A DNA stretch of 64,000 bases from Streptosporangium saharense (GTDB lineage: Bacteria; Actinomycetota; Actinomycetes; Streptosporangiales; Streptosporangiaceae). The stretch spans positions 1,178,001 through 1,242,000 of the forward strand of contig NZ_JACHJP010000002.1 in assembly GCF_014203715.1 (NCBI RefSeq). Direction: 5' to 3'. Both the position numbers and the translations under genes were made by a program. The notes under the pieces are model-generated. The model did not search any database, was not told where the DNA came from, and saw nothing but the letters and a program-made list of their open reading frames with translations. This document shows positions 3,007 through 63,425 of the stretch, piece by piece (position 1 is the stretch's first letter; each line of letters starts with the position of its first letter).

Positions 3007-3333
3007 GTGGGCTTACGCGAGCAGAGTTACCTGATCCTGCTGGCCCTTTCCGAGGGCCCCCTGCACGGATACGGCGTGACCAAAACCGTGCGGGAGCTGT
3101 CCGAGGATCGGGTACGGCTCGGCGCGGGCACGCTGTACGGCGCCCTGGACCGGCTGGCCACCGACGGCCTGGTGACCGTGGCGGGCGAGGAGGTCGTCGA
3201 GGGCCGCCACCGCCGCTACTACGACCTGACGGAGCACGGCCGCGAGGTCCTCACCGAGGAGACCGCCCGCCTGTCCCGTCTCACCGCGACCGCCCGCCGC
3301 CGCCTCGCCCTCCGCCCCGCGCCGGAGCCGTGA
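3007..3333 (+). CDS. PadR-family transcriptional regulator
   Basis: Short winged-helix repressor, 108 residues, the usual size of PadR subfamily 2. Visible features are the PadR N-terminal fold: the SEGPLHGYG turn, the GTLYGALDRL recognition helix, and the wing GRHRRYYDLTEHGRE. A C-terminal dimerisation helix follows. The GTG at 3007 has no ribosome binding site and sits at the expected +1 of the promoter, so the mRNA is probably leaderless. The adjacent permease is the obvious candidate target, though the operator seen lies only at the padR promoter. It is convergent with the chorismate mutase gene, with a 12-bp gap. Confidence 0.88.
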   Translation: MGLREQSYLILLALSEGPLHGYGVTKTVRELSEDRVRLGAGTLYGALDRLATDGLVTVAGEEVVEGRHRRYYDLTEHGREVLTEETARLSRLTATARRRLALRPAPEP

Positions 3334-3345
3334 GCCTTCCGAAGG

Positions 3346-4272
3346 TCAGTCGAGGCCCGAGGCGCGCTCCTCGGCGAGATGGAGCCCGGCCTCGATGACG
3401 GCGTTCATGATGGGGGCCAGGCGCTCCTCACCGAGGGTGGGGGCGCGGCGGGCCATCTCGGCGACCAGGCGGCGCTCACGGTCCATGTCGCGGCCCGCGA
3501 AACCGCCGACGGGCTTGAGCCGCTGGATGGTGCCCGCCAGCTCCGCGCGGCGCTCCAGCAGCACGGCCAGGACCGCGTCCACCCGGTCGATGGCGCCGCG
3601 GGCCTCGGGCACCGAACCCGGCCTCTCCCAGCGGACGACCACGCCGACGATCCTGGCGACCTCACCGGCGTCCAGCGCGGCCTGCTCGGTCGCCCCGGGG
3701 GCGAGCAGGAGGCCGTCGGCCCCCGCGGCGACCGCCGCCGCGGCCAGCGTGGGGTCCTCACCGAGATCGACCAGCACCGGCCTGCCCGAGCTCCGCCGCG
3801 CCTCCCGCATCAGGGCCAGGTCCAGGGGGTGCGTACGGCTGCCGCTCTCGCACAGCACCACCTGGTCGTTGCCCTCCGCCACGCAGTAGTCGGCGATGGC
3901 CAGCCACTCCTGAAGCGTCGCGGCGGGACCGCGCTGCACGACGACCGGAAGCCCGAGCCTGGCGACCGCCCTGACCAACTGGAAGTCCTGCATCCAGGCC
4001 GCGCCGATCACGACCCCGTCGGCGTTGGCCGCGATCTCCCGCAGGTCGGCGGCGGAGAACGGCTCGACCAGCAGGGGCCCCGACCATCCGGCGCGGGCCT
4101 CGGCGACGGCCCTGGCAGCGGGTATCCGCCCATGGTGGTCACGCAGGCTGATCCAGCGGGCCTGCGCCCCCTCGCCGCCGATCACCACGGCCGGTCCCGC
4201 TCCCACCGCGAGCGTCCCCACCCGTACGGCTCCGCGTTCCAGGTGGCGCTCCAGGTCTGCGGTCAACGACAT
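3346..4272 (-). CDS. AroQ-type chorismate mutase domain fused to a degenerate DAHP-synthase-like barrel
   Basis: 308 residues. The C-terminal part (about 222-300) fits an AroQ chorismate mutase: an N-terminal Arg, IDRVDAVLAVLLERRAELA, then a Lys and a D-x-x-RE segment, the usual active-site pattern. It would convert chorismate to prephenate for Phe and Tyr. The N-terminal part (about 20-205) aligns by eye with class I DAHP synthase (WMQDF, RGPAATLQEWL, EGNDQVVLCESGSRT), but expected catalytic and metal positions are changed: GPC reads GPA, KRG reads QRG, and the DPSH metal His is absent. The barrel may therefore be regulatory or inactive (inference). The second ATG (4272) is chosen because GGGAG lies 5 bases before it; the first ATG, at 4284, overlaps that site. 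Expression is preceded by a Phe/Tyr leader and terminator. Confidence 0.72.
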   Translation of the reverse strand: MSLTADLERHLERGAVRVGTLAVGAGPAVVIGGEGAQARWISLRDHHGRIPAARAVAEARAGWSGPLLVEPFSAADLREIAANADGVVIGAAWMQDFQLVRAVARLGLPVVVQRGPAATLQEWLAIADYCVAEGNDQVVLCESGSRTHPLDLALMREARRSSGRPVLVDLGEDPTLAAAAVAAGADGLLLAPGATEQAALDAGEVARIVGVVVRWERPGSVPEARGAIDRVDAVLAVLLERRAELAGTIQRLKPVGGFAGRDMDRERRLVAEMARRAPTLGEERLAPIMNAVIEAGLHLAEERASGLD

Positions 4273-4333
4273 CTCGGCTCCCATACTCAGCCGGCACGCA
4301 TTCCCATGGGCCGGCGAATCGTAAGAAACAAAA

Positions 4334-4358
4334 AAGGCAGAGACCCTGTCTCTGCCTT
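4334..4358 (-). terminator. Intrinsic terminator in the aromatic leader (attenuator)
   Basis: On the minus strand AAGGCAGAGAC pairs perfectly with GTCTCTGCCTT over 11 bp, around the 3-base loop AGG, followed by TTTTTTGTTT (to about 4326). It lies between the leader peptide stop (4392) and the chorismate mutase start (4272), so it terminates before the gene: the layout of an amino acid attenuator. Confidence 0.85.
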
Positions 4359-4391
4359 GTGCCGGCTCCGAACGGTCGCTACATCACGCTT

Positions 4392-4442
4392 TCACGACCG
4401 GCTCCCCGGAGCCGGCTCGGTAAACACGAAGTAGAACGTCAT
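4392..4442 (-). CDS. Phe/Tyr-rich leader peptide of the chorismate mutase gene
   Basis: A 16-codon frame reads MTFYFVFTEPAPGSRS then TGA. Four of residues 3-7 are Phe or Tyr (codons TTC TAC TTC, GTG, TTT), like the pheA leader of enterobacteria. No clear ribosome binding site precedes the ATG; a leaderless start is possible. Within and after the peptide, CCGGCTC (4415-4409) can pair with GAGCCGG (4404-4398). GCCGGCTCC (4416-4408) can alternatively pair with a second copy GGAGCCGGC (4369-4361) next to the terminator. I did not find a clean antiterminator that invades the terminator stem, so the switching mechanism is unresolved. The peptide, terminator and downstream chorismate mutase together argue strongly for Phe/Tyr-responsive control. 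Confidence 0.75.
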   Translation of the reverse strand: MTFYFVFTEPAPGSRS

Positions 4443-4591
4443 GAAAAAGACGATAGGGCATCCTCGTCCCAGGCGCCACTCGCAGGCCAGCGCACTGCGA
4501 GGGGTAGGGAGATCCAGATCTCCGGAGAGTCGATCACCCTCCTCGGCCTATGAGAGTATTCGGTGGTTCCAGAAAGGGGGAGGTGCGATCG

Positions 4592-6697
4592 ATGGCCGAA
4601 GCACAGCCTGAGGGACGTCGCGTCGCCTCCCGTTACCACCTGCTCGAACCCATCGGCCGGGGCGGGATGGGCATCGTCTGGCGGGCGCACGACGAGTTCC
4701 TCGACCGTGAGGTCGCCGTCAAGGAGGTCCGCTACGCCGACATGCTCGGCGAGGACAGCCAGGAGGACTTCAACCGCCGCACCAAGCGCGAGGCGCGGGC
4801 GGCGGGGCGGCTGACGCACCCCAACGTGGTCGTCGTCCACGACGTGGTCGAGGAGGACGGCAGGCCCTGGATCGTCATGCAGCTGGTCGAGTCCCGCTCG
4901 CTCGGCAAGGTGATTCGCCAGGAGGGGCCGCTGCCGTACCGGCGGGTGGCGGAGATCGGGTCGCAGGTCCTTGAGGCACTGCGCGCCGCCCACGCCCAGG
5001 GGGTGCTGCACCGTGACGTCAAGCCGGAGAACGTGCTGCTGGCCGACGACGGCCGGGTGGTGCTGACCGACTTCGGCATCGCGACGCTGGAGACCGAGAC
5101 CGCGCTGACCATGACGGGGATCGCGGGCACGCCCGCGTTCATCCCGCCGGAGCGGATCAAGACCGGGACCGCGCAGCGCGAGTCCGACCTGTGGTCCCTT
5201 GGGGCGACGCTGTACGCGGCCGTCGAGGGCAAGCCCCCGCACGACCGGGGCGGGGCGCTGCCGACCATGCACGCCGTACTGAACGACGAGCCCGAACCGC
5301 CCGTCCACGCCGGACCGCTGGCGCCCGTGCTCGAAGGGCTGCTGCGCAAGGACCCCGACCTGCGGATGTCCTACGACGAGGCGGCCCGGCTGCTGCGCCA
5401 GGTGGCGGAGAGCCCCCAGGAACGGCGCCAGCCCGCCAGGACGGCCGTCATGCCCGCCGTCGCGGGCGAGGCGAGCGCCGAGACCGACCCGGGCGTCCAG
5501 TACCGCCCGGAGGCCGTGCCCGCGACGGGAGTGAAGCTGGGCTCCTCCACGGCCGAGGAGCCCCAGGCGCGCGGAGACCGGCCCCCGGCCGCCCCCGTCT
5601 CCGGGGCGGCGAACCGGCCCGCCGCGAAGCCCCCGTCGAAACCGCCGTCGAAACCGGCCGCCAAGCCCGCCCAGCAGGCCGTACAGAAGAGCCCGCAGGC
5701 CGCACCGCAGCCGGTGACGCGCAAGGTCACGCCGAGGCCCGCCGCCAAGCCGGTGCCGCCGCGCCCCGTGAGTCCCCCCAGACCCGCCGAGCCCGCGGTC
5801 AGGCGTGAGCCCGCCCCATCGGTACGGCCTCCGGTGCCCGTCTCGCGTCCCGAGACCAGGTCCGTCCCCCCGGCGCCGTCCGTTCCCCCGGCCGTGGAGT
5901 TCTTCCCCACGTCGCCCTCGGGGGGCGGAAAGTCTCCCTGGAACTGGGACTCCATGCCGCCGCTACGGCGGTGGCTGCTGCTGCTCGTGCCCGTGCTGGT
6001 GCTCATCATGCTGGTCGCGGGCTATCTCGGGATGCGCTCCGGAAGGGCGGGCGGTCTGCCCGAGCCCAGGCCGAGCGGATCAAGCGAGTCGAGCGAGGCG
6101 GGCGGGTCGGGTGACTCCGTCGGGGCCGCCGACAAGCCCGCGGAGACGGCCACGGAGCCGGTCTCCGAGAACTCCACCGAGCCCGCGGAGAGCCCCAGTC
6201 CCAGTCCCACGGAGAGCACCCCCACGGACAAGGACGAAGAGAAGGAGAAGGAGTCCGGGCTGCCCGAGGGCTGGCGCACGCACAAGGACTCCAACGGGTT
6301 CTCCGTCGGCCTGCCCAAGGGGTGGGACGTCGACCGTCGTTCCGGCCCCTCGGTGTGGTTCCGCGGTCCCGACCGGGTGAGCTACCTGCTGATCGAGTAC
6401 ACCAACACTCCCAACTCCGACCCGAAGAAGGACTGGGAGGACCAGGAGCGCTACAGCAGGGGCAACTTCCCCGGCTACAAGCGCATCCAGATCGAGAAGG
6501 TCGACTACATGAAGAAGGCCGCCGACTGGGAGTTCACCTGGAACACGAGTTCCGGCAAGGCGCGCGTGATCGACCGGGGCTTCGTGACCGAGGGTGGCAG
6601 GGGCTACGCGATCTACTGGCACACCATGGCCGACGAGTGGGACAAGAACCTCGCCCTCTTCAAGGGATTCACGGCGACCTTCTCCTCCAAAAAGTAG
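4592..6697 (+). CDS. Transmembrane Ser/Thr protein kinase with LpqN/PsbP-like ectodomain (copy 1)
   Basis: 701-residue receptor-type Hanks kinase. Kinase domain about 12-275: P-loop GRGGMG, ATP-binding Lys in VAVKEV, HRDVKPEN catalytic loop, DFG, and PPER in place of the usual APE. A Pro/Lys-rich linker (KPPSKPPSK) leads to one transmembrane helix near 461-483, then an acidic Ser/Glu spacer and a C-terminal outer domain (about 557-701). That domain has FSVGLPKGW, ADWEFT, DRGF and YAIYW blocks. The lP-x-GW pattern resembles LpqN/DcrB/PsbP-like folds (inference); PASTA repeats are absent. The ATG at 4592 is chosen for the AAAGGGGGAGG site 9 bases upstream. A paralogue follows 51 bp downstream. 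Confidence 0.9.
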   Translation: MAEAQPEGRRVASRYHLLEPIGRGGMGIVWRAHDEFLDREVAVKEVRYADMLGEDSQEDFNRRTKREARAAGRLTHPNVVVVHDVVEEDGRPWIVMQLVESRSLGKVIRQEGPLPYRRVAEIGSQVLEALRAAHAQGVLHRDVKPENVLLADDGRVVLTDFGIATLETETALTMTGIAGTPAFIPPERIKTGTAQRESDLWSLGATLYAAVEGKPPHDRGGALPTMHAVLNDEPEPPVHAGPLAPVLEGLLRKDPDLRMSYDEAARLLRQVAESPQERRQPARTAVMPAVAGEASAETDPGVQYRPEAVPATGVKLGSSTAEEPQARGDRPPAAPVSGAANRPAAKPPSKPPSKPAAKPAQQAVQKSPQAAPQPVTRKVTPRPAAKPVPPRPVSPPRPAEPAVRREPAPSVRPPVPVSRPETRSVPPAPSVPPAVEFFPTSPSGGGKSPWNWDSMPPLRRWLLLLVPVLVLIMLVAGYLGMRSGRAGGLPEPRPSGSSESSEAGGSGDSVGAADKPAETATEPVSENSTEPAESPSPSPTESTPTDKDEEKEKESGLPEGWRTHKDSNGFSVGLPKGWDVDRRSGPSVWFRGPDRVSYLLIEYTNTPNSDPKKDWEDQERYSRGNFPGYKRIQIEKVDYMKKAADWEFTWNTSSGKARVIDRGFVTEGGRGYAIYWHTMADEWDKNLALFKGFTATFSSKK

Positions 6698-6748: not shown

Positions 6749-8716
6749 ATGACCGAACGGAAGGTCGCGGGCCGGTACCGCCTGCTCGAACCCATCGGCG
6801 AAGGCGGAATGGGCGTCGTCTGGCGTTCCCACGACGAGCTTCTCGACCGGGTCGTGGCGGTCAAGGAGGTCCGTTACCGCGGGATCGACGAGGCCGCGCG
6901 GGCCGACCTGAACCGGCGGACGATCCGGGAGGCCAGGAGCGCCGGACGGCTCGACCACCCCTCCGTGATCATCGTGCACGACGTGGTCGAGGAGGAGGGG
7001 CGGCCCTGGATCGTCATGCAGCTGGTCCGCTCGCGCTCCCTCGGCGAGGTGGTGCGCCGGGGCGGGCCGCTGCCCCCGGCGCGGGTCGCCGCGGTCGGGC
7101 TGCAGGTGCTCGGCGCGCTGCGGGCCGCGCACACGGCCGGGGTGCTGCACCGTGACGTCAAGCCGGAGAACGTACTGCTGGCCGACGACGGCCGGGTGGT
7201 GCTGACCGACTTCGGCATCGCCTCCATGACGCAGGAGACCGGGATCACCCGCACCGGGGGGATGGTCGGCACCCCGGCGTTCCTGCCTCCCGAGCGGCTG
7301 CACGGCATGCCCGCGACCCCCGAGTCGGACCTGTGGTCGCTGGGGGCGACGCTGTACGCGGCCCTTGAGGGGCGTCCGCCGTTCGAACGGCCGACGGCCG
7401 CGGCGACCATGATGGCCGTCCTGAACGGCGAGCCGAGCCCCATGTCCCACACCGGCTCCCTCGTCTCGGCGATCCTCGGCCTGATGGCCAGGGAGCCCGC
7501 CGCCCGGCTGAGCGCGGACGCGGCCGAGACGCTGCTCACCCGCGCCTGCACCGAGACGGCGGGGGCCGCGGGAGCCTCCCGGCACGGCCGTCCCGCCTCC
7601 CCTCTGGACGACCCTCTGAGCGACCCCCTCCCTCCCGCTCCGCCGTATCCGAGCGAGGCACCGTACGCGGACCCCCGCCACGGCGGTGAGGCCTGGCGGC
7701 AGCCGACCCCCCAGCCGGGGATCCCCCCGCAGAACGCCGCCCCGTGGCACCCCGGCCTGTCCGGGACGCCCCACGACCCGTCGGCCGCCGGGCAGACGCC
7801 GTACCCGCAGATCCGCGACGGCGGGACCCGGGCCGGGCAGCCCGCCTACCCCAACGACCCCTTCCAGGCCTACCATCCGGGTGGCCAGGCGCCTCCCGGC
7901 GAGCCCGCCCAGGCGGGTTTCCATCCCCAGGGGGGGTATCCACTGTCCGCCGACCCGTTCGGCGGGCACCATCCCGCGTCGTCCCACGGCACCGAGCCGT
8001 CGTACCGGAGGTCCGGTGGGCGGCGGGGCAGGCGTGCCGCGCCCGGTGAGCCGGTGACCTCGCGGCGGACGGCCGTACGGCGGACGGCCCTGATCGTGGG
8101 GATACCGGTGCTGGTCGCGGGGCTCGGCGCCGGAGGGTGGTTCCTCGTGGACAACCTCGGTGACGGCCGGACCGTGACCCCTCCCGCGACATCCGCCCCG
8201 CCGAGCCCGTCCGCCAAGCCGTCGAAGAGCCCGCGCCCGTCCCCCACGGCCTCTCCCACGGCGCGCCCGGCCAGGCTGCCCGAGGGCTGGCAGTACTACA
8301 AGGACCCGGTGATGGGCTTCACCGTGGCCCTGCCGCGCGGCTGGGCGAGCAAGCGCTTCCCCGGGCGTGACCGGGTGGAGTTCAGGAAGGCCGGTTCGTC
8401 CGCCCTGCTGTGGATCGAGTCGACCGACGACCCGGAGAAGGACCCGGTCAGGCACTGGGAGAAGCTTGAGAAGGACCGCGTGGTCGAGAAGCTGTGGCCG
8501 GGCTACGAGCGGATCGGCATCACACCGCTGCGCTACCGTGGTGTGGAGGCGGCCGACTGGGAGTTCACCTACCTGAAGAACGGCGTCCGGACACACGTCC
8601 TGGACCGGGGGTTCCACACGATCACGGGCCGTCCCTACGCGATCTACTGGGAGAGTCCCGAGTCCGAGTGGGACCGGGCGTTCTTCGACAGGTTCACCGA
8701 GACCTTCCGTCCGTGA
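6749..8716 (+). CDS. Transmembrane Ser/Thr protein kinase with LpqN/PsbP-like ectodomain (copy 2)
   Basis: 655 residues, clearly a tandem duplicate of the preceding kinase. The kinase domain (about 8-265) has GEGGMG, VAVKEV, HRDVKPEN and DFG, with long stretches identical to copy 1. The cytoplasmic linker differs: it is Pro/Gly/Tyr-rich rather than Lys-rich. One transmembrane helix lies near 446-466, then a Pro/Ser spacer and the same type of ectodomain (about 510-655; LPEGW, FTVALPRGW, ADWEFT, DRGF, YAIYW). The ATG at 6749 has GGAGAG just upstream. The stop overlaps the GTG of the AraC gene by 4 bases (GTGA), so the two are probably translationally coupled. Confidence 0.9.
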   Translation: MTERKVAGRYRLLEPIGEGGMGVVWRSHDELLDRVVAVKEVRYRGIDEAARADLNRRTIREARSAGRLDHPSVIIVHDVVEEEGRPWIVMQLVRSRSLGEVVRRGGPLPPARVAAVGLQVLGALRAAHTAGVLHRDVKPENVLLADDGRVVLTDFGIASMTQETGITRTGGMVGTPAFLPPERLHGMPATPESDLWSLGATLYAALEGRPPFERPTAAATMMAVLNGEPSPMSHTGSLVSAILGLMAREPAARLSADAAETLLTRACTETAGAAGASRHGRPASPLDDPLSDPLPPAPPYPSEAPYADPRHGGEAWRQPTPQPGIPPQNAAPWHPGLSGTPHDPSAAGQTPYPQIRDGGTRAGQPAYPNDPFQAYHPGGQAPPGEPAQAGFHPQGGYPLSADPFGGHHPASSHGTEPSYRRSGGRRGRRAAPGEPVTSRRTAVRRTALIVGIPVLVAGLGAGGWFLVDNLGDGRTVTPPATSAPPSPSAKPSKSPRPSPTASPTARPARLPEGWQYYKDPVMGFTVALPRGWASKRFPGRDRVEFRKAGSSALLWIESTDDPEKDPVRHWEKLEKDRVVEKLWPGYERIGITPLRYRGVEAADWEFTYLKNGVRTHVLDRGFHTITGRPYAIYWESPESEWDRAFFDRFTETFRP

Positions 8717-63289: not shown

Positions 63290-63425
63290 GCCCGCGCGCT
63301 TCCTCCCATCCGGACTTTGACCGTCGGTCCTGGAGTTTCACCAGGTCAACCGGTCGATGGCTTCGACCGGGTCGCGGACTTTAACCGCCGGCTCGGAATT
63401 TCACCGACCCCGGAGCACGCTGCTC
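63290..63425 (-). promoter_or_regulatory. FMN riboswitch (RFN element)
   Basis: On the minus strand the conserved RFN blocks appear in order: GGTGAAATTCC (63405-63395), GCCGGCGGTTAAAGTCCGCGA (split; ends 63372), CTGGTGAAACTCCAG (63344-63330), GACCGACGGTCAAAGTCCGG and GGATGGGAG (ending 63303). Binding of FMN should switch the downstream ribE-ribM-ribBA-ribH operon off. Confidence 0.93.

Follow-up and report, generated by a model that had tools for sequence, protein, structure and literature searches.

The chorismate mutase (CM) gene in the window, i.e., the whole 64,000-nt stretch of Streptosporangium saharense DNA analyzed here, is preceded on the minus strand by a 112-nt RNA element (4442-4331, as delimited by the covariance-model match) which, judging by its conservation among orthologues, probably operates as a ribosome-mediated transcription attenuator of this gene, responding mainly to charged tRNA-Phe and secondarily to tRNA-Tyr. 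The element represents an RNA family that spans several actinobacterial families within the class, is found before genes of both DAHP synthase and CM, and is absent from Rfam 15. The sensing part of the putative attenuator is well supported by comparison of the leaders, from which we also infer a leaderless start, ribosome stalling and a response to amino acids. The following features make up the locus, in the 5' to 3' order of the minus strand:

4450..4455 (-), probable -10 box TATCGT of the TANNNT type, 7 nt before the leader ATG (sequence and spacing in orthologues)
4392..4442 (-), leader open reading frame (ORF) MTFYFVFTEPAPGSRS*, 16 codons, with ATG at 4442-4440 and stop codon TGA at 4394-4392 (sequence and translation)
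4422..4424 (-), gate codon UUU (Phe7), 5 nt before arm A (codon counts over 101 orthologue leaders)
4406..4416 (-), arm A (GCCGGCTCCGG), partner of D (helix P1) or, in part, of B (covariation counts)
4394..4399 (-), arm B (GGTCGT), partner of C (helix P2), overlapped by the end of the leader ORF (covariation)
4374..4379 (-), arm C (GCGACC) (covariation)
4361..4371 (-), arm D (TCGGAGCCGGC), partner of A (covariation)
4334..4358 (-), terminator hairpin AAGGCAGAGAC-AGG-GTCTCTGCCTT (terminator scan and covariation)
4330..4335 (-), T run of the terminator (sequence)
4290..4315 (-), possible hairpin P3 (GCCGGC...GCCGGC) between the terminator and the Shine-Dalgarno sequence (by eye)
4278..4282 (-), probable Shine-Dalgarno sequence GGGAG of the CM gene (by eye)
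3346..4272 (-), CM gene, comprising a partial DAHP_synth_1-like part and a CM_2 domain (Pfam)

Read from 4442, the minus strand runs ATG ACG TTC TAC TTC GTG TTT ACC GAG CCG GCT CCG GGG AGC CGG TCG TGA, so that Phe or Tyr fills four of the five positions 3-7, as the initial annotation had proposed for a minus-strand leader located before the CM gene. The perfect 11-bp terminator stem followed by a T-tract, claimed there as well, is borne out: the hairpin at 4358-4334 features 11 pairs and a 3-nt loop followed by the T run, and it is the only terminator-like site in 3300-4700, where shuffled sequences lead to an expectation of 0.3. The two alternative pairings suggested for 4416-4408, with either 4405-4398 or 4369-4361, are both possible in the sequence, and the first arm of P3 (A') is also complementary to D. 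The leader ORF is probably leaderless because its ATG is situated only 7 nt past the TANNNT box. On the opposite side of the leader promoter, there are two tandem genes, 4550-6697 (+), a Ser/Thr kinase according to Pfam, and 6749-8716 (+), similar to it by eye.

In the CM protein, Pfam recognizes DAHP_synth_1 at residues 66-191 (profile positions 85-229 of 270) and CM_2 at residues 229-301, the latter being the single CM_2 match genome-wide. The N-terminal part covers no more than about the central half of the profile of DAHP synthase and is possibly a non-catalytic, regulatory remnant. As for the translation start, ATG 4272-4270 behind GGGAG is more likely than ATG 4284 since relatives (e.g., L004) lack the upstream ATG. 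The protein is present in 16/16 genomes of the genus and, at E 1e-40, in 83/200 genomes of the family, 111/249 of the order and 12/296 of the class, these samples of genomes overlapping.

The comparison of orthologous upstream regions, which the initial annotation had suggested as a check, came out in its favor. It encompassed 119 oriented CM loci including that of the window; it revealed the same arrangement in 107 of them, and the helices covary. A pattern requiring a start codon, an in-frame Phe codon, arm A and the terminator retrieved 101 leaders, and the covariance model R1, built from 50 CM leaders, added six more (L069, L071, L075, L086, L089 and L110; E 6.4e-15 or better). There is also one weak or split copy in L012 (L012:2485-2767), where R1 gives two separate, weaker matches (E 1.9e-6 and 2e-5), as though the leader were split by an insertion. 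Two loci are unable to hold a leader (L118 is cut by a contig end, L134 starts within the gene), and the R1 search found the element to be absent from nine of the 117 judgeable loci: L057, L091, L121-L125, L078 and L084. The first seven all come from genus g33, whose CM loci harbor a 259-aa open frame matching the CM protein from residue 65 only and no leader; the leader and the N-terminal part seem to have been lost together in this genus.

A short leader ORF with a Phe gate codon characterizes 100 of the 101 leaders aligned. This codon, the final Phe codon ahead of arm A, reads TTT in 98 leaders and TTC in two and is missing from L092; in 100/101, exactly 5 nt separate it from arm A; the Phe codons of five window genes comprise 64 TTC and no TTT. 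The distance from the TANNNT box to the start codon is 6-8 nt in 98/101 leaders, 75 of them having a spacing of 7 nt. A stop codon between B and D was found by script in 94/101, the other seven being flagged by a loose pattern. The pattern that defined the 101 leaders had required an open frame, hence the reading frame was re-tested without this condition: the gate was found from RNA features alone, and the nearest upstream TANNNT-N6-8-start was taken. With a chance expectation of 1/3, the gate was in frame with the start in 103/103 CM loci possessing a box and a start (16/119 have none) and in 69/70 DAHP-synthase loci (3/73 lack them; L216 is out of frame), although these loci are related and the counts are not independent trials.

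The Phe/Tyr richness of the leader is a less constant trait. Tyr occurs in 44 of the 67 distinct N-terminal parts of CM leaders, and some leaders keep the gate Phe alone (e.g., MTCRHAF, MKRCSVF, MTCHQAF); the occurrence of several leaders devoid of Tyr and with just one Phe codon counts against the attenuator reading. Overall, the idea of Phe/Tyr attenuation of the CM gene gains from the deep conservation of the leader, from the near-invariant in-frame UUU at a fixed distance and from membership in an RNA family also found before DAHP synthase. The Phe/Tyr richness that the initial annotation pointed to is not kept, several orthologues having the last Phe only.

The helices covary. P1, P2 and the terminator comprise 27 pairs, for which 98.1% of cells of the 101-leader alignment are paired, and both sides have changed in 10/27 pairs; none of 500 shuffles scored as high (the sequences are related, and the shuffles are uncorrected for relatedness), and slid controls pair in at most 44.7%. 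Likewise, P1 and the terminator, the two helices compared there, covary in 18 DAHP-synthase leaders. An intrinsic terminator with a covarying stem is thus present between the leader and the CM gene. A length variation of 1 nt past arm A is tolerated among the CM leaders. In two A-U pairs of the terminator, the 5' arm has changed to G in 9 and 15 leaders, and the U of the 3' arm has been kept in each; in alignment A1 (column pairs 140-172 and 142-170), the 3' arm CUCUG is near-invariant next to the A to G changes of the 5' arm. The constraint on the 3' arm exceeds the need of a plain terminator. Universality of the terminator stem sequence was considered and rejected, given the deviating L158, L176 and L181. 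A hairpin between A and B was likewise dismissed as the switch: 98.3% of cells pair, with just one both-sided change in the CM alignment and none in the DAHP-synthase leaders, and the A:B pairing may be a by-product of the GCCGG core common to both arms.

The proposed attenuator would work as follows. Transcription would start at or adjacent to the leader AUG, and the leader peptide would be translated by a ribosome. With charged tRNA-Phe (and probably tRNA-Tyr) plentiful, the ribosome would reach the stop codon, P1 (A:D) and P2 (B:C) could form, and transcription would end at the hairpin 4358-4334. Under Phe scarcity, the ribosome would halt with the conserved UUU in the A site. The footprint of a ribosome in this position would extend over approximately the first half of arm A. 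Since arm A starts 5 nt downstream of UUU, the stalled ribosome is expected to overlie the base of A and open P1, which would favor read-through into the CM gene.

An antiterminator excluding the terminator stem was sought by folding 14 leaders free, masked by a ribosome at the gate or masked at the stop (the segments of L162 and L184 are too short), and none was found: the minimum-energy folds, the masked ones included, keep the terminator in 12/12 judgeable leaders, those with a complete or almost complete hairpin, in agreement with the initial annotation, where no antiterminator invading the stem had been seen. Several truncated folds suggested the pairing P0, formed by UUU and the terminator 5' arm (AGAC), as an antiterminator. 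It was rejected: 96.0% of cells pair, yet no both-sided change occurs. P0 is also lost, by eye, in mycobacterial-type leaders with GGCAGUGAC.

The RNA family was delineated with two models. In the own genome, R1 found nothing beyond the element, the other matches having E 0.099 or worse and including two that overlap the element on the opposite strand. Across the class, it matched 71 places in 49/296 genomes (E 0.01); among the 40 places read, 39 precede a DAHP synthase or CM gene, and L178 ends before its gene. By NCBIfam, two of the genes at these places are DAHP synthases (aroFGH, E 1.6e-54 and 4.3e-50), and two others are stand-alone CMs with best E values of 3.7e-9 and 4e-9; Pfam detected CM_2 in 7/7 CM genes analyzed; L148 is a CM orthologue by the class protein search, and the remaining gene identities were judged by eye. 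The second model, R2, derives exclusively from DAHP-synthase leaders (18 of them), and it matches the CM leader of the window with E 2.2e-8, its sole match in the own genome at E 0.1. Hence, a single RNA family serves both genes.

At E 0.001, R2 matched 48/292 genomes of the class and 11/396 of the phylum; one of the phylum matches (L198 in G719) looks false and was rejected as a leader, its position resembling a tRNA gene. Of 80 named DAHP-synthase loci among the matches listed, 28 are actinobacterial, and R2 matched 18 of these (E 2.8e-8 or better); R1, applied to the 28 loci only, added three (E 2.1e-4 or better). The carriers named among the matches listed include Mycolicibacterium, Gordonia, Dietzia, Williamsia, Tsukamurella, Arthrobacter, Isoptericola, Glycomyces, Catellatospora, Paractinoplanes, Amycolatopsis, Rhodococcus and one Streptomyces, in which the last aromatic leader codon is TAC (Tyr) instead. 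The listed actinobacterial loci matched by neither R2 nor R1 belong to two Nocardiopsis, three Bifidobacteriaceae, Gryllotalpicola and one Streptosporangiales bin, and R2 matched 0/52 of the listed non-actinobacterial loci at E 0.001 (best 0.0035). In family f6, a DAHP synthase match was obtained in 198/231 genomes searched, and an R2 or R1 match was present in 20/20 upstream regions checked. The loci L230-L234 of this family were matched below E 0.01 by R1 only (3.2e-6 to 8.3e-3); no separate terminator hairpin was discerned by eye in these DAHP-synthase leaders, where a nearby CCGGCTCG offers a partner for D and there is no T run.

The families of Rfam 15 include the T-box and the Phe leader. 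Searched against Rfam 15 at gathering scores, the window gave no match at the element, the only hit being an FMN riboswitch elsewhere, and ten loci of the RNA family gave none at E up to 1. The FMN riboswitch, at 63292-63422 (-) with 95.5 bits, is close to the window end.

DAHP synthase feeds the synthesis of Phe, Tyr and Trp, whereas CM feeds that of Phe and Tyr only. Leader peptides were parsed for 70/73 DAHP-synthase loci (L216, L232 and L252 were left out) and 112 CM loci. Up to the gate, Trp is encoded in 43/58 distinct N-terminal parts of DAHP-synthase leaders (e.g., RWYWRF, YWRF, YFWF) vs. 0/67 of CM leaders, a contrast with Fisher p 4.5e-21, uncorrected for relatedness; past the gate, Trp occurs in two CM leaders (L053 and L061). 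The contrast agrees with the prediction from the pathway, but it is a lead rather than proof since lineage confounds it: the CM leaders come mostly from one family and the DAHP-synthase leaders mostly from others. In genera g105 and g126, the DAHP-synthase leaders (RRYPYF and similar) are devoid of Trp, like the CM leaders there; in g105, the element precedes both genes, and neither leader has Trp. The enrichment of Trp in DAHP-synthase leaders points to a role of the codons preceding the gate as well.

In the pheL-pheA and trpL-trpE attenuators of Escherichia coli, a leader peptide with codons for the end product and a terminator precede the gene (the product of pheA is chorismate mutase-prephenate dehydratase), and the antiterminator has an arm in common with the terminator. 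The CM gene of the window likewise follows a leader peptide and a terminator, but no antiterminator sharing a terminator arm was found in its leader. A leader, aroR, is reportedly situated before aroF (DAHP synthase) in Corynebacterium glutamicum, as described by Neshat et al. in 2014. In genus g393, taken for Corynebacterium by protein likeness, the RNA precedes the DAHP synthase gene in 4/4 genomes checked of the six with the gene; R2, a model derived from other DAHP-synthase leaders, matched all four loci (E 9.9e-13 to 5.2e-5), and Phe-Tyr-Phe is encoded in three of the leaders (L215, L216 and L218; not in L217). Judging from these loci, aroR-aroF of C. glutamicum is a likely relative that may belong to the same RNA family. 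The aroF leader of C. glutamicum encodes Phe-Tyr-Phe (PMC4046766), and aroR controls aroF, the operon being upregulated on Phe limitation with no effect of Tyr (PMC11802643, which also mentions pheL-pheA and trpL-trpE). Common to aroR and the window leader are the aromatic peptide and its position before a gene of the aromatic pathway, with a Phe response reported for aroR; they differ in the target, DAHP synthase in the former and CM in the latter. The published response to Phe alone suits the gate, but the simple gate model fails to cover both this response and the Trp enrichment.

An aromatic attenuator in actinobacteria has a precedent in the published aroR-aroF of C. glutamicum (PMC11802643, PMC4046766). 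Among the titles and abstracts listed from the mainly open-access literature searched, none points to an attenuator located ahead of a chorismate mutase gene in actinobacteria. PMC1262725 and PMC8079986 describe actinobacterial Trp, Leu and Ilv attenuators with often leaderless leader ORFs, a TANNNT box and hairpins thereafter; the window leader resembles them in these three traits and differs in the amino acids. No conserved RNA structure before actinobacterial Phe/Tyr operons is stated in the former, and the eight leaders of S. lividans given in the latter include none for DAHP synthase or CM. Attenuation of ilvB1 in M. tuberculosis is the subject of another source (PMC13236596).

Among other explanations, a post-transcriptional one has a small though real chance of being correct: the leader ribosome would decide on the partner of D, either A or, on the far side of the terminator, A' by the ribosome-binding site of the CM gene, and thereby set the translation or stability of the read-through mRNA, the terminator acting as a fixed brake. 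D is indeed complementary to the stretch past the terminator (mean -18.8 vs. -13.1 kcal/mol for shuffled sequences; rank 0.05 or better in 74/101 leaders), in L230-L234 it can pair directly with the downstream CCGGCTCG, a separate terminator hairpin not being seen by eye, and the aroR control is called translational, via Phe and Tyr, in PMC7356990. Pairing of D past the terminator cannot prevent termination, but it could act later. On the other hand, the complementarity of D and A' exhibits no lineage-specific co-change and may be due to repetition of the GCCGG core, the Shine-Dalgarno sequence lies outside the P3 hairpin, and the terminator is kept at high sequence identity.

A ligand-binding RNA, i.e., a riboswitch whose coding appearance is a by-product, would agree with the strong sequence conservation of several stems, that of the terminator included. 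It is very improbable in view of the gate lying in frame with the start (103/103 and 69/70 loci), the free length after arm A, the retention of a rare UUU, the confinement of Trp codons to DAHP-synthase leaders and the lack of an Rfam match for the element. Least credible of all is a constitutive terminator or a short stable RNA exerting no amino-acid control, which is in line with the failure to find an antiterminator but leaves unexplained the conserved leader ORF, the gate codon, the covarying P1 and P2 and the common use of the element before two genes of the aromatic pathway.

Building on the transcription attenuator as the preferred reading, a broader picture can be offered tentatively, its odds being clearly below even: the leaderless attenuators before DAHP synthase and CM would constitute an RNA regulon extending across the actinobacterial class and using a switch of a non-classical type, its codons tracking the pathway branch served. 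In this regulon, a ribosome on the rare UUU exactly 5 nt before P1 would move D between A and a downstream partner, with no antiterminator invading the terminator. With no classical antiterminator found in it, the element lends itself to a clean test of alternative means by which a terminator may be spared by a stalled ribosome, and the Trp-codon contrast between the target genes is a lead on the choice of leader codons. The published aroR case would extend to an RNA family distributed across several actinobacterial families and missing from Rfam 15. If true, a single RNA family couples tRNA charging to both the entry of the shikimate pathway and its Phe/Tyr branch in actinobacteria, including producers of antibiotics and amino acids.
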